NCBI GenBank assembly: GCA_023667395.1
Contig: JAMPAC010000001.1
Span: forward strand, 550,073-589,281
Source: Blautia sp.
Lineage (GTDB): Bacteria; Bacillota; Clostridia; Lachnospirales; Lachnospiraceae
Length of the DNA: 39,209 nucleotides
Reading direction: 5' to 3'
Shown here one piece after another: positions 1 through 7,557 of this stretch. The notes beneath the pieces are model-generated. The model was given only the letters and a program-made list of their open reading frames with translations, had not been told where the DNA came from and ran no database searches. A program made the translations under genes and the position numbers. Position 1 is the stretch's first letter. Each line of letters opens with the position of its first letter.

Positions 1-55
1 CATCCTTTAGCACCACCTCCGTGTGCGTGCATTTCCTCACAAACTGCAGATTGAC
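1..55 (-). pseudogene. Fragment of a LytTR response-regulator gene
   Basis: The first 55 bases of the window are identical to 5659-5713, which lie inside the LytTR domain of the intact response regulator at 5591-6286. The identity stops abruptly at base 55 and the sequence then passes into material resembling the 3' end of the acetyltransferase gene. The fragment may continue to the left of the window. It is the remains of a second regulator copy, not a functional gene. Confidence 0.85.
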
Positions 56-850: not shown

Positions 851-1711
851 TTACCAAATATGTGTATGGAAAGATTCTGTATGACCAATACCTGTAAACC
901 ATGAACAATTGGTTCTTCCATTCTTCAACGTACCATCGCAATAAGCATTGCCAGCCCCGTCTTCTGATGATATTGCCTCTGATACGCAATATGCGCTCAT
1001 CCAATATGCGGATAATCCTGTGGGATTTGCTAAATATGCAACTCCTAATTTAACAGACATTGAGCAGTCCGAACTCTGCAATGCAAATTCAACTGCATTA
1101 ATGGATGTTGTGTCAGTATCATGTTTGTTGCATCCCACAATATTTACATCACGATGTATTGGTGATTGTCCAACACCATTTCCGTAAGTCTGACCAGCCG
1201 TCCTTTTGGGATAAGTTACAATAGTTACCTGTCCTTCTGCTTCCTTCATTCCATTTCCCATTCTTTGAATCCCTTCACCTAACTCCTCCAATGAACGGGT
1301 TATTATAATATTCCCAGTACTTTCATCCACACTCAGACCAGCATCTTCATCTGTTGATACAAGCATACTATCCTTATACAGATCTATACCCTTTTCTTCC
1401 AAATCAGATATATTCTCCTGTAAATAGTAACACCCATTAGTATCTGTTTGGTATCTTTTCCCATCTATTTCAACACTACCATACACGTATGGCACATCAA
1501 TGTGATAATCTCCATTAGCCTTTTGCTGAAATATGCTGTCATAATCAATTGCTTCCGACTCTTTAATCAAGTCAAGCAAAAACTGCTTCTTATCAGCATC
1601 GTCCGTCATTGCCATTTCCTCTTTAAATGATGCGACAGCTCGTTCTACAGCTAATTCCATTGATTCTCTATATGCTATGCCCTGCTCCTCTGTCATTGTA
1701 ATGGAAACCAT
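851..1711 (-). CDS. Possible secreted effector downstream of agrD, signal peptide probably lost
   Basis: 286 residues with no family I recognise. Residues 1-110 are acidic and probably helical. A Gly/Glu-rich middle leads to a C-terminal domain (about 165-286) with five Cys, many Thr/Ser/Asn, and the aromatic/His ending WFTGIGHTESFHTHIW, which looks like an extracellular domain. The ATG at 1711 has no convincing ribosome site and lacks a signal peptide. The frame stays open for 13 more codons upstream (NENAGSKTPSGQI) to a TGA. Just before that, in another frame, is a signal-peptide-like start MKKTFQNVVVYL. This suggests a deletion and frameshift in an ancestral signal peptide. It follows agrD by about 140 bp and is probably in its transcript. 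It may be a pseudogene in this strain. Confidence 0.6.
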   Translation of the reverse strand: MVSITMTEEQGIAYRESMELAVERAVASFKEEMAMTDDADKKQFLLDLIKESEAIDYDSIFQQKANGDYHIDVPYVYGSVEIDGKRYQTDTNGCYYLQENISDLEEKGIDLYKDSMLVSTDEDAGLSVDESTGNIIITRSLEELGEGIQRMGNGMKEAEGQVTIVTYPKRTAGQTYGNGVGQSPIHRDVNIVGCNKHDTDTTSINAVEFALQSSDCSMSVKLGVAYLANPTGLSAYWMSAYCVSEAISSEDGAGNAYCDGTLKNGRTNCSWFTGIGHTESFHTHIW

Positions 1712-1852
1712 TATTTGACCGGACGGAGTTTTTGAGCCTGCATTTTCATTTCAGATACACCACGACATTCTGAAAGGTTTTTTTCATATACTTGACTTTC
1801 TTGTTCAACGCAAGTTTTGTTATATCCTTACTGCTGTATTAGCTATCAGATC

Positions 1853-2002
1853 TTAATCTTCTTTCCGCTTCGGTCTCTTTGGCTGGTGAAAAAATCCAGA
1901 ACAAATTGGTGGATCTCCCCACTCATCTCTTTTAACTTCATTACGGACAAGTCTTTCTACAACCTTGAGTGCCATTTTTCTGATTTTCCTGTTTTTCTTC
2001 AT
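1853..2002 (-). CDS. agrD: AgrD-like autoinducer peptide precursor
   Basis: 49 residues: a basic, amphipathic N-terminal leader (MKKNRKIRKMALKVV), a short linker, the core around Cys34 (PPICSGFF), and a charged tail HQPKRPKRKED. This matches the cyclic-lactone autoinducer family of clostridia, where the Cys forms a thiolactone ring with a residue four positions on and the following PKxP tail is cut off. By analogy the ring would be C-S-G-F-F with an exocyclic tail; the N-terminal cut cannot be read from sequence. The start overlaps the agrB stop as ATGA, with AGGAGG upstream. The tail is unusually basic. The mature signal sequence is inference. Confidence 0.88.
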   Translation of the reverse strand: MKKNRKIRKMALKVVERLVRNEVKRDEWGDPPICSGFFHQPKRPKRKED

Positions 2003-2583
2003 TTTACACACACCTCCTGTTTTATGATTTTTGCCAAACACATCAAGAATGCACATAATATAATAGCCGCCGACATATAGCCAATATACAAAATATCAGC
2101 TTTCAAATAAACTAAGGCAGCAAGTATCATTGCTTCCATTAAAACCATCAGTCTAGCCGCTTTCTTAGACTCTTTCAATTCACTCTTGCTCATATCCATA
2201 TTAGGGTGGTTTATTGTACCCATGATGCATATTAAAAGCATTGCAAGAAATAGCAACCCATACATAACAGCCTGATTTCTGCAAAGTATAGGTACAATCT
2301 GCATAATTGCAATATAAAACATGATTGTACCTAGATAACACTGCCAAAACTTGTTCGCATGAAATCCCCCTGTCCGTTTCCTTAATGAAAGAAAAAACAC
2401 TATAAAACAAATCGTGGGTAAGAATTGTCTGAATATCAATCCTAAAATCAGCATGGTCCCAACTGTGATAACATGTTCAACCATACGTATTAATGCATAT
2501 TCATAATATTCACAACTTGATTTGCTTATTATCTTCTCCAGTTCCATTTGATTGACAATCTTTAATGCCATCTCCTCTATCAT
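1999..2583 (-). CDS. agrB: AgrB-like autoinducer-processing membrane peptidase
   Basis: About 194 residues. AgrB is a membrane cysteine endopeptidase that cuts the AgrD precursor and makes the thiolactone. The catalytic pair is visible: His in RTGGFHA and Cys in WQCYLGT, seven residues apart as in Staphylococcus AgrB. Counted from the upstream ATG at 2589 they fall at 77 and 84. Several membrane segments follow, ending in a short basic tail. The ATG at 2583 is preferred over 2589 because AAGGAG sits one base from the first but seven from the second. The gene overlaps agrD by four bases, which implies coupled translation. It has its own LytTR-type promoter at 2605-2671. Confidence 0.93.
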   Translation of the reverse strand: MIEEMALKIVNQMELEKIISKSSCEYYEYALIRMVEHVITVGTMLILGLIFRQFLPTICFIVFFLSLRKRTGGFHANKFWQCYLGTIMFYIAIMQIVPILCRNQAVMYGLLFLAMLLICIMGTINHPNMDMSKSELKESKKAARLMVLMEAMILAALVYLKADILYIGYMSAAIILCAFLMCLAKIIKQEVCVK

Positions 2584-2604
2584 AAACATGCTCCTTAGTT
2601 ATTC

Positions 2605-2671
2605 AGTATGAATTATATATAAAATAAATCAAGGCTCCTTGCAGAAAACGGACTATTTTTGCAGAAAACGG
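2605..2671 (-). promoter_or_regulatory. AgrA-type (LytTR) promoter of the agrBD transcript
   Basis: Two copies of TTGCAGAAAACGG start at 2639 and 2659, a 20-bp period that puts both on one face of the helix, as LytTR regulators require. Immediately downstream on the minus strand are a -35-like TTGATT (2632 to 2627) and, 16 bp on, CATACT (2610 to 2605). A perfect TATAAT (2617 to 2612) also exists but lacks a -35 at normal spacing. A poor core promoter with sites abutting the -35 is typical of an activated promoter. The repeat-to-minus-10 distance equals that at 4890-4956 if CATACT is used. Confidence 0.72.
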
Positions 2672-2710
2672 CACAAAATAATTTTTAGAGCCAATCATTT
2701 TACATTGCTT

Positions 2711-4009
2711 TTATGCAGGAATCATAATTGAAAAGAAAAATTCTTTATTCTTATCTTCAATGACATATGCGCCATCATATTTCTCAATGATTTTTAACAC
2801 ATTCTTGATGCCTACGCCATGTTCATCCACGCTTGATGTTTTTGTAGATTTTATCTCACCATTCTCATATACAACATCATAATTAAATGTATTTTTAACT
2901 GCAATGATTATTATCTCATCTTCTTTAACAAATTTGAACTTAATTGTCTTTTTATCCTCACAGGTCTCACACGCTTCAATGGCATTGTTTAGAAGGTTTG
3001 CAAGGATAGTAACCACATCCTCATCTTTTATTTTCAACTCTGAAAGATCATTTACCCTGAAAACAAAAACAATTCCTTTTGCTTCTGCCTCCTGGTACTT
3101 TTTATTAAGTATGGCATTTACTATTACATTATTGGTGTTAATGGCGTCCGGTTCATTATTCAGAGAACCATAAATCTTTTTTACATATTCTTCTAATTTA
3201 GAATATTGCTTTTTGCTCAGCAAGGATTCTATGCATGAAATCTGATTTTTATATTCGTGCGATTTTCTTTTTTGGTTATCAAAGTTTTCAGAAATGAACC
3301 TATACATTTCCAACTGATTTTTAGCTTGAATCTGCAAAACCTTATTTTCATGCATCTTCAGTTCTCTTTCCAAAATATCGTTAATTAAATAAAACACAAC
3401 GATATTCATTACCACCATTCCAAATGTAATGATTGACAATAGATTCGCTTGTTCTATTGTCTGCATATGTCCAAAAACAGACACCATTGCTGAAATCGCT
3501 ACTATAGTAAAGACAGGAAAGAATAGAAACCTTAACCACTCTGTATCCAGCATCATTTCCATTGATTTTTTACCAAACTGTTTTCTGATGATAAGAACAA
3601 TTAAAAACAATATAACCTTTGCCAGCAGAGATGCCAAAGTAAGTCCAATTGCATACTGCGGTTCTAATGATTCGCTACTTAAAGAAAACCATCTACTAAT
3701 CAAATAAATCAGATAATCCATTGCCAACAACAATGCATCAAATAATAGTGCCAATGCAAAAGATTTTTTCAAACTGATTTTAACATGCCAAAGCATAAAT
3801 ACTGAAAATACAGAAATCGCAACAATCTGCCTTAGTACAAAATATTCAGATAAGCCATATGAATAAAAACACATACTGCCAAGCAATAACAACCCCTGTA
3901 TGAAATTAATCCAGCCTTTACGCCGTATCTCACCAAAAGTTTCAAAAAAAATCCTACAACACGTTGCTTCAATAAATATCAGCAATACATTCCGCGTTAA
4001 ATCAAACAT
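2711..4009 (-). CDS. agrC: AgrC-like sensor histidine kinase (GHKL type)
   Basis: 432 residues. About six membrane helices fill residues 5-210 and would bind the extracellular autoinducer. A coiled linker leads to the kinase core. The H box is around His251 (KSHEYKNQ). The GHKL ATPase domain has its N box at about 338-347 (LLNNAIEACE) and a glycine box at 397-400 (HGVG). This is the usual AgrC layout, with no HAMP or HisKA domain. The start codon directly follows the agrA stop (TAGATG) with GGGGAG upstream, so the two are translated together. A 120-bp gap holding the agrB promoter separates it from agrB. Confidence 0.92.
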   Translation of the reverse strand: MFDLTRNVLLIFIEATCCRIFFETFGEIRRKGWINFIQGLLLLGSMCFYSYGLSEYFVLRQIVAISVFSVFMLWHVKISLKKSFALALLFDALLLAMDYLIYLISRWFSLSSESLEPQYAIGLTLASLLAKVILFLIVLIIRKQFGKKSMEMMLDTEWLRFLFFPVFTIVAISAMVSVFGHMQTIEQANLLSIITFGMVVMNIVVFYLINDILERELKMHENKVLQIQAKNQLEMYRFISENFDNQKRKSHEYKNQISCIESLLSKKQYSKLEEYVKKIYGSLNNEPDAINTNNVIVNAILNKKYQEAEAKGIVFVFRVNDLSELKIKDEDVVTILANLLNNAIEACETCEDKKTIKFKFVKEDEIIIIAVKNTFNYDVVYENGEIKSTKTSSVDEHGVGIKNVLKIIEKYDGAYVIEDKNKEFFFSIMIPA

Positions 4010-4735
4010 CTACACTTCTCCCCGACACGCTATAAACTTTTTCTTGACTTCTGTATACCTTACTTTCGGTATGGATAACTCAACCCCGTTTGTCAGTATC
4101 ACTTTATAACGGACAACATTCTTGATATGTTTCACATTAACAAGGTAACTCTGATGTACCCTTATAAAATCATTCTCCGCCAGTCTGGTTTCAAGTACAT
4201 TTAATGTTCCATACATGGTGTAGACTTTCATATCATCCTCCATGACATGAAACTCAAGTATATGCAGGTTGCTCTCAATATACAGCAATCTTTCCAATGA
4301 TATTTCTTTTCTGCCTTCCTTAAAGTCAAATTCCCTTTTTGCCACGGAATAATTCATTTTATCAATAATGGCATCCATACATTCATTAACTTTGCTCTGA
4401 AAGTTGGCATTGCCCTTTAGCAAGTACCTTACAACATCTAGTCGGTATCCTTCCAGCGAATAGTCCACATATGCAGTCACAAATACGATAAACACTTCCC
4501 TGCTTACTTCTCTAATTTTTTCCGCAGCCTTGATACCATCAATCTTTTCCATGTTTATGTCTAAGAATATGACGGTATATTTTACTACCTCAATCCCTAA
4601 CTCTATCAATACCTCGCCAGAGCTGTATGTATCTATTTCAAAAACAAGACCTTTTTCCATCATATAGCCGGAGAGCAGTTCTTTTAGTTCTTCTGTAAAA
4701 AGATTTTCATCATCGCATATTGCAATCTTGAACAT
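4010..4735 (-). CDS. agrA: AgrA-like LytTR response regulator
   Basis: 241 residues. The receiver domain (1-125) shows the acidic pair Asp8/Asp9 and the phosphoacceptor Asp59 in IFLDINM. The LytTR DNA-binding domain occupies about 135-238, with the characteristic RVHQSYLVNV. It would be phosphorylated by the adjacent AgrC and bind paired direct repeats. Candidate pairs lie before its own gene and before agrB. AAGGAGG lies about ten bases before the ATG. It is first in the agrAC transcript and about 155 bp downstream of a good promoter. Confidence 0.93.
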   Translation of the reverse strand: MFKIAICDDENLFTEELKELLSGYMMEKGLVFEIDTYSSGEVLIELGIEVVKYTVIFLDINMEKIDGIKAAEKIREVSREVFIVFVTAYVDYSLEGYRLDVVRYLLKGNANFQSKVNECMDAIIDKMNYSVAKREFDFKEGRKEISLERLLYIESNLHILEFHVMEDDMKVYTMYGTLNVLETRLAENDFIRVHQSYLVNVKHIKNVVRYKVILTNGVELSIPKVRYTEVKKKFIACRGEV

Positions 4736-4889
4736 ATGCGTATCCCCTCCTTTTCTGCTAATTGATATCAGCCTGTTCCTGACGCTTTATACCCCATTAT
4801 GTTGTATTTTAACACTTCTTACTAAATCCTTTACCTGTACATTCATAGCAAGGAAAGATGATATACAGAAATCCACAATTCCCCTTATT

Positions 4890-4956
4890 ATTCTATTTTT
4901 CTTTAATGCATAAGTCAATCAAATTGCAGAAATCGACCATATTATGCAGAATTTGA
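4890..4956 (-). promoter_or_regulatory. Promoter and LytTR repeat pair upstream of agrA
   Basis: On the minus strand TTGACT (4918 to 4913) and TAGAAT (4895 to 4890) are 17 bp apart. Just upstream, GCAGAA-containing repeats TTGCAGAAATCGA (4924) and ATGCAGAATTTGA (4944) recur with a 20-bp period, the same motif, orientation and spacing as before agrB. The second copy is more diverged. This suggests positive autoregulation with weaker binding than at agrB. The rest of the roughly 345-bp gap between 4736 and 5079 shows nothing else convincing. Confidence 0.72.
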
Positions 4957-5079: not shown

Positions 5080-5575
5080 TTACCAGGACTGTGGCAGCAA
5101 GATCTCCGTCGTAAACGCGCCGTCCTCACTGTTGCGGCTGATATAGCCCTGGCAGCGATCCACGATGGTGTCTATCCTGACCAGTTCGTAGCCATGCCCC
5201 GCCCCTTTGGTGGTGAGGAAACGCCGCCCTATCTTCGCCGCTTCTTCAGGGCGGTGGTATTAGTAAAGGACATATAAAGCTGGATCTGGCCAGTGAGATC
5301 TTGCTGTTCAGGATCACATCCGTCATCCTGTTTCCCGTTTTCAGCGCCGTATCCACCGTATTCAGGTCTACCGCCAGTTCGTTCAGATACCTGTTCAGCG
5401 CCTCCAGGTCACCCTGCTCCGCATACCCTTTCAGCACCTGGATATGGTTGCGGTAATCATGCCGCCAGCCCCTGGTCTGGCGGTACATACTCTCCACCTC
5501 GGCGTAATGCACCGCCAGCAGGTCGCTCTGGTACTCCGCTATTCTCTTGTCGATCAGTTTCTCAAAAAATAACAT
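5080..5575 (-). pseudogene. Broken GHKL sensor kinase
   Basis: The start is normal for short GHKL kinases without a membrane sensor: MLFFEKLIDKRIAEYQ, then the H box WRHDYRNHIQ and the conserved TGNRMTDVILNSKISLA. Immediately after, the sequence jumps to what should be about 65-70 residues later (in another frame, QLYMSFTNTT), removing the N box. A further shift and an in-frame TAG occur before the C-terminal TTKGAGHGYELVRIDTI and TEILLPQS, which end at 5080. Without the ATP-binding N box it cannot be a kinase. It starts 15 bp after its partner regulator gene, so the pair was once a working two-component system. Confidence 0.88.
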
Positions 5576-5590
5576 AGGCGCTCCACAACC

Positions 5591-6286
5591 CTAAAAATAC
5601 ATGATAATGGCACGGTTCAGTCCGTCGTAGCGCTTCCGGGAAAGAGGCAGGGAGGCGTCATCCTTTAGCACCACCTCCGTGTGCGTGCATTTCCTCACAA
5701 ACTGCAGATTGACGATATAGGAACGGTGTATCCGGTAAAACCGCTCGTCCAGCAGTTCCGCCATCTGCCCCAGCGTCCGCTTCACGCTGTAACTCTTCTC
5801 CCCATGGATCGTCACATAGTTCCCCATCACTTCCAGATACCGTATCCTGGCCAAAGGAATCCTGACGATCCCCTCCGGCACCGTAAGCGTCAACTCCCGT
5901 TCCCGGTTCTTCAGCCGCTCCATGGCACGGTCCAGCACGCCGCACAGCTTCTTTGCCGTCACCGGCTTCAACAGGTAATGCAGCGCCTCCACATCATACC
6001 CCTGCGCGATATATTCCATATACCCCGTCACAAACACGATCTGGATCCCGGCCCCCAGCTGCCTGAGCCTCTGCGCCAACTCGATACCGCCCAAATCCCC
6101 CATCTCAATATCCAAAAGCAAAACGTCAAACCCCTGATCCTCCTCAAAGGCAAACAAAAACGCCTCCCCCGAAGAAAACCTGTCAATGCGGATCTGATAT
6201 CCCGCTTCCCTGTTCCACTCCCGGATCAGCCCCTCTATATACTCCACATCCTCCCGCCTGTCATCGCAAATTGCAAACCGATACAT
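5591..6286 (-). CDS. LytTR response regulator, partner of the broken kinase
   Basis: 231 residues. Receiver domain (1-120) with acidic Asp8/Asp9 and phosphoacceptor Asp59 in LLLDIEM. LytTR DNA-binding domain (about 130-231) with RIHRSYIVNL. The start at 6286 (MYRFAICDD) fits the family; the open frame extends 16 codons further but that part is not family-like. GAGGAG lies about 12 bases upstream, a little far. It is GC-rich, unlike the agr genes. Its cognate kinase at 5080-5575 is destroyed, so it is an orphan that may be driven by another kinase or be inactive. Bases 5659-5713 recur exactly at 1-55. Confidence 0.9.
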   Translation of the reverse strand: MYRFAICDDRREDVEYIEGLIREWNREAGYQIRIDRFSSGEAFLFAFEEDQGFDVLLLDIEMGDLGGIELAQRLRQLGAGIQIVFVTGYMEYIAQGYDVEALHYLLKPVTAKKLCGVLDRAMERLKNRERELTLTVPEGIVRIPLARIRYLEVMGNYVTIHGEKSYSVKRTLGQMAELLDERFYRIHRSYIVNLQFVRKCTHTEVVLKDDASLPLSRKRYDGLNRAIIMYF

Positions 6287-6469
6287 AATCCAAACTTTCT
6301 CCTCACAATCATCCCCGACCAATACCAAAGCCACCCCAACTCCGCCGCATCCGGCGCTTGCAGAGAATTTCAGAAATATGGCAAATGATCCTTAAATTGA
6401 AGAAAGCGTCAAATGATTTACTCCGTCATTGGCGCTTATCTTATAGATTTCTTCCCTGATACTGTATTG

Positions 6470-6522
6470 TTACCACATAAACCGTTTTGTGCGGTTCGTC
6501 ACATGACCTTGTATTTATCCAA
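6470..6522 (-). pseudogene. Possible remnant of a RelE/ParE-type toxin gene
   Basis: Directly overlapping the antitoxin stop is a short frame TTG-GAT-AAA that reads DKYKV and hits a stop. Shifting frame by one base continues as VTNRTKRFMW before another stop. DKYKV followed by VTNR is how many RelE/ParE-family toxins begin after a Phd-type antitoxin. This looks like a toxin gene reduced to its first codons. The evidence is short, so this is inference. Confidence 0.35.
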
Positions 6523-6778
6523 AATGCTTTTTCTCCAATTCTGCAAACACTATCTCTGCATCGGCTGCCTCTGCTCCGTTTGCAATTTCCTGTTCGGATT
6601 CATAGATAGCCTGGTCAATACGGTTAATCCTTGCGAATTTATCATACAATTCACTACTCATTACAACCAGGTCGCTATATCCGTTTTTGGTAATAAAAAT
6701 AGGCTCCTGCTCCTTGTGCGCAATATTGGAAATTTCGGTTGTATTACGTAAATCCTTGATAGGCATAATAAGTGGCAT
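6515..6778 (-). CDS. Phd/YefM-family antitoxin, apparently without toxin
   Basis: 87 residues. The N-terminal DNA-binding part has the family pattern: MPIKDLRNTTEISNIA, then EPIFITKNGYSDLVVMS. The charged C-terminal part (IYESEQEIANGAEAADAEIVFAE) would bind and neutralise a toxin. The start at 6778 has GGGAG about ten bases upstream and gives a family-length protein. Antitoxins of this family normally precede a RelE/ParE or Doc toxin gene, but only a possible scrap remains at 6470-6522. A promoter with a palindromic operator lies at 6805-6833. It may persist as a repressor or as an antidote to a related toxin elsewhere. Confidence 0.85.
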   Translation of the reverse strand: MPLIMPIKDLRNTTEISNIAHKEQEPIFITKNGYSDLVVMSSELYDKFARINRIDQAIYESEQEIANGAEAADAEIVFAELEKKHFG

Positions 6779-6804
6779 AATGTTTCGCTCCCTTCTTCGA
6801 CATA

Positions 6805-6833
6805 ATGATAGCATAATTATGCGTTAAAAACAA
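6805..6833 (-). promoter_or_regulatory. Antitoxin promoter with palindromic operator
   Basis: On the minus strand TTGTTT (6833 to 6828) and TATCAT (6810 to 6805) are 17 bp apart. The perfect palindrome GCATAATTATGC (6811-6822) fills the spacer. This is a natural operator for autorepression by a Phd-type antitoxin, and it overlaps the start of the adjoining gene's 3' region. Confidence 0.65.
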
Positions 6834-7092: not shown

Positions 7093-7557
7093 TTACAATG
7101 TATATTTGATTTCCTTGACATACAATCTGTCTATTCCATTGCCATAATTGACAATATCCCTGAGATAACGATACCCATACTTTTCGTACAAACCTGTATG
7201 GATTGACGGGATATATGTTTTATCGAATCCATTTTCCTTTGCGTATTCGTTTGCAAAAGCAATCAGCTTTTCACTGATCCTGTGCCCACGATAATCTTCC
7301 GCCACAAAGATACCCGATACCCACGGATATATTTCAGGCAACGGATAATAGTCTTTCTTCCTGGTATAGGCTATTCCTACGATCCGGCCATTCATGATTG
7401 CCGCAAACGGGGTTTCCCAATCCGTAAACGCCCATGCCCGAAGTTCGCCCAACATATGTTCTTTTACGTCTTCCCACGAGAAATTTTGGACGAAACAGAT
7501 TAATTCATCTGCCAGTTCTGTGCCTTTGTCCACTTTTTTTATCTCCAATGTATCCAT
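7093..7557 (-). CDS. GNAT-family N-acetyltransferase
   Basis: 154 residues, a usual length for a single GNAT domain. The acetyl-CoA-binding segment is visible in IFVAEDYRGHRISEKLIAFA, preceded by the strand VGIAYTRKKDYYPLPEIYPWVSG. The C-terminal YIPSIHTGLYEKYGYRYL is the usual last-helix and strand pattern. The substrate cannot be told. GAGGTG lies about seven bases before the ATG. A frameshifted, internally deleted copy is found at 71-275, on the far side of the agr locus. Confidence 0.9.
   Translation of the reverse strand: MDTLEIKKVDKGTELADELICFVQNFSWEDVKEHMLGELRAWAFTDWETPFAAIMNGRIVGIAYTRKKDYYPLPEIYPWVSGIFVAEDYRGHRISEKLIAFANEYAKENGFDKTYIPSIHTGLYEKYGYRYLRDIVNYGNGIDRLYVKEIKYTL

Follow-up and report, generated by a model that had tools for sequence, protein, structure and literature searches.

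The agr locus and its relatives

The DNA examined here (the window) is a 39,209-nucleotide stretch of contig JAMPAC010000001.1 from a Blautia sp. assembly (GCA_023667395.1), probably of gut origin, the genome of which comprises 4.43 Mb in 206 contigs and is 94% complete. As judged from its sequence, the window carries an agr quorum-sensing system, with AgrB, AgrD, AgrC and AgrA each assigned to its family and the genes reading A-C-B-D on the minus strand (Table 1). An earlier note on this DNA had described all four genes as present and intact, and this has held: on inspection of the open reading frames (ORFs) each is uninterrupted, and the Pfam and NCBIfam matches lie above their cut-offs. AgrB matches PF04647 at 114 bits (cut-off 23), AgrC matches HATPase_c_5 at 91 bits (cut-off 22), AgrA exceeds the cut-offs of both LytTR, at 59 bits, and Response_reg, at 50 bits, and AgrD matches NCBIfam TIGR04223 at 20.5 bits (cut-off 19) over residues 34–45. 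The His and Cys of AgrB, also reported to be in place, can be read directly in the motif GGFHANKFWQC, seven residues apart; in AgrB proteins such a pair is catalytic. Several hydrophobic segments fall within residues 8–209 of AgrC, which has the make-up of a multi-spanning sensor with a GHKL kinase domain. A search of solved structures gave matches confined to the receiver half for AgrA, none at E ≤ 0.01 for AgrC, and for AgrB only matches at E 0.7 or worse, regarded as chance.

The agrC gene directly abuts agrA, and the agrD start overlaps the agrB stop codon as ATGA, its AGGAGGT-like ribosome site sitting within agrB. Between agrC and agrB lies a gap of 121 bp with a conserved box and a promoter-like sequence, and agrA-agrC and agrB-agrD plausibly form two separate transcripts. 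Position 4956, where the earlier note ended the locus, is the far edge of the box upstream of agrA.

Table 1. The agr locus and its surroundings, with positions in the window
Feature	Position	Strand	Description
agrA	4010-4735	-	response regulator with LytTR DNA-binding domain, 241 residues
agrC	2711-4009	-	membrane sensor histidine kinase, 432 residues
agrB	1999-2589	-	membrane peptidase predicted to process AgrD, 196 residues, His/Cys pair
agrD	1853-2002	-	signal precursor, 49 residues, predicted ring C-S-G-F-F and charged C-terminal tail HQPKRPKRKED
Tandem AgrA-type box upstream of agrA	4925-4956	-	TTCTGCA direct repeat
Tandem AgrA-type box upstream of agrB-agrD	2640-2671	-	TTCTGCA direct repeat
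Promoter-like sequence downstream of agrA box	4890-4918	-	TTGACT-N17-TAGAAT; similar sequence in most aligned relatives
Remnant of post-agrD terminator	1749-1777	-	truncated in its right arm; no T-run and no box beyond it
ORF abutting the break	851-1711	-	286 residues, no hydrophobic segment, no family
Remnant of second AgrC-like kinase gene	5080-5575	-	frame broken, internal part missing
LytTR response regulator of neighbouring two-component pair, not agrA	5591-6334	-	Pfam; 78% identical in same-genus genome G001

An AgrB scan of genome contigs yielded 17 related loci (L029–L045) from Roseburia faecis, Eubacterium plexicaudatum, Lachnospiraceae isolates and metagenome-assembled genomes (MAGs), with AgrB 75–87% identical to that of the window. 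The A-C-B-D order recurs in the 14 relatives that extend into agrA, the other three ending at contig edges, and in 13 relatives AgrA is 79–93% identical over residues 1–241. The genes are orthologous, and the AgrD core and, with exceptions, the boxes are shared. Occurrence is patchy: among 60 further genomes taken as relatives, 19 have an AgrB match (best 50%), and there is an AgrC match at E ≤ 1e-90 in 14 of 396 other genomes of the family (four candidates scored per genome). AgrB and TyrS identities are at most 6 points apart in 15 of the 17 relatives; in the other two, both MAGs (G061 and G063), TyrS is 70–71% identical and AgrB 87% and 84%. With the discordance limited to these two, where misbinning is possible, horizontal transfer of agr is not claimed.

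Irregularities are seen in some of these loci. The AgrA frame of L035 meets a stop after 150 residues, L036 and L039 have an interrupted AgrC (its pieces ~1.5 kb apart in L039), and L035, L037, L038 and L042 carry a second, distant agr-type gene set near the first. The window's own genome has a single match to PF04647 (E ≤ 0.001). A protein search also recovered a second, cut-off agrB end of 39 residues with a full agrD (ring CMGFF) on contig C178 (L028, 1–703); group II intron matches in Rfam begin no more than ~150 bp past this agrD, RF02001 at 417 and RF01998 at 624. A third AgrD-like match (C151, E 0.07) was set aside as chance; it overlaps other ORFs, including a large one on the opposite strand.

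Staphylococcal agr (agrBDCA) is built from the same four protein families and likewise has a five-residue ring, according to excerpts of a review (PMC12312760), and direct repeats upstream of LytTR-regulator promoters are described there too (excerpts of PMC4227749). The window differs in its order, A-C-B-D rather than B-D-C-A, as the earlier note had pointed out, and its AgrA lies far under the cut-off for the staphylococcal equivalog. RNAIII is absent across the window at Rfam gathering level, the sole match at that level being a drum RNA (RF02958, 30883–30986), just over the gathering score. Gene order varies among agr systems in the excerpts of PMC12312760: Clostridium acetobutylicum has separate agrBD and agrCA units, resembling the window in its pairing of precursor with AgrB and of kinase with regulator, C. 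difficile has agrD1B1, and Listeria monocytogenes, which shares a five-residue ring (CFMFV, of different residues), has the order BDCA. As the C. difficile order is written agrACDB in the abstract of PMC3754575 and agrB2D2C2A2 in the table of PMC12312760, no precedent for A-C-B-D is drawn from that species.

The predicted signal and its sensor

The AgrD core PPxCxGxxHQPKRP is kept in all 17 relatives, the Cys, the Gly two residues later and HQPKRP being invariant and ring positions 2, 4 and 5 variable. In Listeria AgrD an aromatic residue and an (E/Q)PK motif follow the ring, comparable to the HQPK of the window. Four more distant AgrDs of the same genus (L003–L006) keep the Cys and QPKRP, but the Gly is present in just one of them. 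The earlier note, which had proposed a five-residue ring C-S-G-F-F, named absence of the Cys and PKxP tail from homologues as grounds for giving it up; the comparison was run, and both are conserved in 17 of 17. The ring stands as the best reading of AgrD, on the strength of this core and of its co-variation with the AgrC sensor.

The co-variation was assessed in the 13 of 18 loci that have a whole AgrC (L032, L036, L039, L042 and L043, where it is cut off or broken, were left out). Differences in the ring track distance in AgrC residues 1–205 (rho 0.64), and not in the kinase half (0.02) or AgrB (-0.10). In a partial Mantel test on 12 loci, with L031 removed as a near-duplicate of L030 and the kinase half as control, ring and sensor remained tied (r = 0.63; not one of 5000 permutations reached this value, so that p = 0.0002 is the lowest attainable), while the controls gave r = 0.14 (p = 0.17) for AgrD leader and sensor and r = -0.19 for AgrB. 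The tie is strongest at AgrC residues 1–70, and again at 151–190. The AgrC sensor of the window shares 91% identity with its counterparts in L030 and L031, both with ring CSGIF, and 67–78% with those in the other ten loci. Since the ring changes with the sensor, the recognition of a five-residue C-S-G-F-F ring by the membrane half of AgrC is supported.

The earlier description of the signal as unusual stands within this family and not beyond it. Phe at ring position 4 is found in the window alone among the 18 loci (Ile in 16 of the 17 relatives, Leu in one), and the second AgrD of the same genome has it likewise; the rings STGFF and CTVFF are listed for staphylococci in a table excerpted from PMC12312760. 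One of these, the autoinducing peptide RIPT[STGFF] of Staphylococcus pseudintermedius, has G-F-F at ring residues 3–5 as in the window, and differs in being a serine rather than a cysteine lactone, from another genus.

Closure of the ring as a thiolactone, and the point at which the CSGFF peptide is trimmed at its N-terminus, are predictions, and co-variation separates neither thiolactone from head-to-tail closure nor one leader cut from another. The chances are even that the signal is something other than the plain C-S-G-F-F thiolactone, either through retention of an N-terminal tail (e.g. PPI) or through trimming of the leader to a free Cys and rearrangement to a head-to-tail cyclic pentapeptide. 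A Pro-Pro ahead of the Cys, shared by every one of the 17 relatives and by this genome's second AgrD, favours such a peptide, as does the S-to-N acyl shift reported for tail-free pentameric rings (excerpts of PMC11297923); nothing in the analysis counts against it. The chemistry of the signal would change, the circuit would not.

A tandem box at agr and at its linked genes

Both agrA and agrB are preceded by a direct repeat, TTCTGCA-N13-TTCTGCA, followed by a promoter-like sequence. Promoter-like sites are not in excess in the region (17 against a mean of 18.6 in shuffles), and the promoter and terminator scans of the window, being at shuffle level, are no evidence on their own. The repeat itself is conserved. 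Upstream of agrB it is recognisable in 17 of 17 aligned relatives, with core substitutions in L034, L038, L040 and L041, and upstream of agrA in 10 of 13, L035 having one half, L036 a copy displaced upstream and L045 a contig that ends short of it. The exact pattern TTCTGCA-N13/14-TTCTGCA has two matches in the 4.43-Mb genome, both at agr, and none for the reversed control. By a 66-site matrix, made solely from 13-base-spacer sites of the relatives, the window's two boxes score 54.5 and 38.7, and no further site exceeds 10 in 212,711 bases of its own genome (around agr and C178); the relatives' own scores are partly circular, their sites being in the matrix.

The S. aureus AgrA repeat differs in sequence from this box. 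AgrA of the window may nevertheless bind the tandem TTCTGCA repeats: it is their natural candidate binder, as in S. aureus the promoters under AgrA are preceded by two direct repeats to which it binds (excerpts of PMC4227749).

In the 17 relatives the box is not restricted to agr's own promoters. The pattern has 108 matches there (5 for the reversed control, all in G075), of which 76 lie on the agr contig, a count to which the one contig of 6.35 Mb contributes just its 8 matches within 46 kb; 53 of these 76, in 15 of the 17 genomes, are outside the promoters of agr. Among 13 loci at a greater distance (AgrC 39–62% identical), 7 also carry the box by matrix score. As the bare pattern has a background, the argument for the box rests on its clustering and on the matrix score.

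Box-linked genes were sought in wide stretches from 8 of the 17 relatives and in the 17 loci, each box being paired with whichever frame within 450 bp was longest among those preceded by a sequence resembling a ribosome site; this rule may have misassigned some genes. Once agrA and agrB are set aside, the first frames so assigned form 23 groups, and those after agrD differ among species. At E ≤ 0.01, Pfam places ten of 20 group representatives in a family, in one case below the cut-off; the nine above comprise three radical-SAM proteins, a subtilase, a trypsin-like and a matrixin-like protease, a von Willebrand protein, a helix-turn-helix (HTH) regulator and a domain of RNA polymerase alpha C-terminal type. 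Many of the other proteins start, as judged by eye, like signal peptides. The commonest target group is a 122-residue protein. It has no match in the window's own genome, and as 3 of 7 agr-bearing relatives searched also lack it, this absence is weak evidence.

Two further observations concern these genes. In L038 and L042 the second agr set lies within ~150 bp of the box-linked 122-residue gene, and one agr may act beside or on another. In L063 (561–2400, minus strand) a box stands ahead of a 64-residue Cys-rich peptide and a radical-SAM enzyme; the pair resembles a modified-peptide cluster, possibly under quorum control.

A circuit probably parted from its local targets

Beyond agrD, the 11 relatives examined all have a hairpin, then a T-run and then a box, and a box occurs 101–121 bp past the agrD stop in 15 of the 17. 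In the window this box is lost: homology ends inside the right arm of the hairpin, at ~1749, and neither T-run nor box lies beyond. The surroundings also differ. Upstream of agrA lie the broken kinase gene, the match to which extends further in the same-genus genomes G001 and G014, and its LytTR partner; in G001, nrdD, nrdG, dut, gerA and the LytTR regulator stand in a row with a kinase gene that is open over 219 residues, and the contig has no agr. Given the break after agrD and this agr-free row, the agr of the window is a bare A-C-B-D unit in a rearranged spot. Window positions 1–55 recur exactly at 5659–5713 and 98–259 recur at 93% identity at 7378–7539, which marks the left edge as a repeat or an assembly overlap. 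A Phd/YefM-type antitoxin-like gene, just above the NCBIfam cut-off and below that of Pfam, lies at 6515–6814.

The reading that best accommodates these results, and which we hold with high confidence, is of a complete agr circuit with a CSGFF signal and box-driven feedback, the local targets of which have apparently been lost. AgrB would cut AgrD behind Phe-38 and close the five-residue ring; the exported peptide would bind the N-terminal membrane half of AgrC, the step that co-variation supports; and AgrC, from its family, would phosphorylate AgrA. AgrA would then occupy the tandem boxes, with repeats ~20 bp apart, before agrA and agrB-agrD, raising both transcripts in a positive feedback. 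The break in the post-agrD terminator, the loss of the next box and the confinement of the exact box to agr would leave this circuit parted from local targets, from which it has probably been severed.

An unlikely variant is that the lost cargo has been replaced, with transcription from the agrB-agrD promoter passing the damaged terminator into the ORF beyond. The remaining stem is weak (-4.6 against -8.2 to -13.6 kcal/mol in the 11 relatives) and has no T-run, the terminator scan found no terminator-like site at 1749–1777, and the ORF starts ~40 bp beyond the break on the same strand. However, this ORF looks cut at its 5' end and shows no ribosome site, it has no Pfam or NCBIfam family and no relative in 31 other genomes, and as a candidate relative of the box-driven genes it was rejected, for want of a match in the 17 relatives' loci or those genomes.

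Somewhat doubtful, too, is the possibility that the target genes exist in the organism and were dropped from the assembly at a scaffold gap. A run of N immediately left of the window, the exact 55-bp repeat at the contig edge and the division of the genome into 206 contigs all speak for such a loss; the homology break, however, falls within unbroken sequence at a distance of 1.7 kb from that gap, and no other contig has the exact box. Decay of agr to a silent remnant is considered improbable: the neighbouring kinase is broken and agr genes are damaged in three relatives (AgrC in L036 and L039, AgrA in L035), but the four genes of the window are open and match full-length relatives, and both boxes are kept.

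Several points weigh against a complete circuit severed from its targets. The window's AgrA scores 45.2 bits against the staphylococcal equivalog NF046049 (NCBIfam), the curated cut-off of which is 400, and the Mantel test corrects for relatedness via the kinase half only. A longer form of the box, with up to 3 mismatches, finds one additional weak site elsewhere in the genome, and weaker or different boxes at targets would escape detection. The bare pattern, moreover, has 51 matches in 40 same-genus genomes (the window's excluded; reversed control 3), or ~1 per genome, though these are mostly scattered and have spacers unlike the box, with one box-like match each in G006 and G036. The run of N adjoining position 1 weakens the case for severance, and in an assembly 94% complete some of the targets may only seem to be lost. 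Nor is that loss unique to the window, as L040 has only a decayed half box after agrD and L041 none.

This is an ordinary agr system, set apart from the routine by the co-variation of receptor and ring, by a specific box, and by the contrast between relatives with linked targets and a genome apparently without them. Agr is well studied in pathogens, and the titles and opening lines of abstracts in the open literature searched, subscription journals falling mostly outside that scope, offer little on agr output in gut Lachnospiraceae and name no agr-linked box regulon there. Co-variation provides a testable list of signals (CSGFF, CSGIF, CMGIG and others), and the box, twice in the window's genome and clustered around agr in the relatives, makes the regulon predictable from sequence. 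More tentatively, gut Lachnospiraceae may harbour an agr family with an exchangeable, box-driven gene array, from which the agr of the window has parted to become a self-amplifying signal with no local target. Such an array could conceivably consist of secreted proteins, proteases, a Cys-rich peptide with its radical-SAM enzyme, and HTH regulators around agr. The window is a natural contrast, an agr circuit without neighbouring targets, and if this circuit has indeed parted from an array, it would perhaps act as a listener or a jammer, or represent one stage in the exchange of a regulon.

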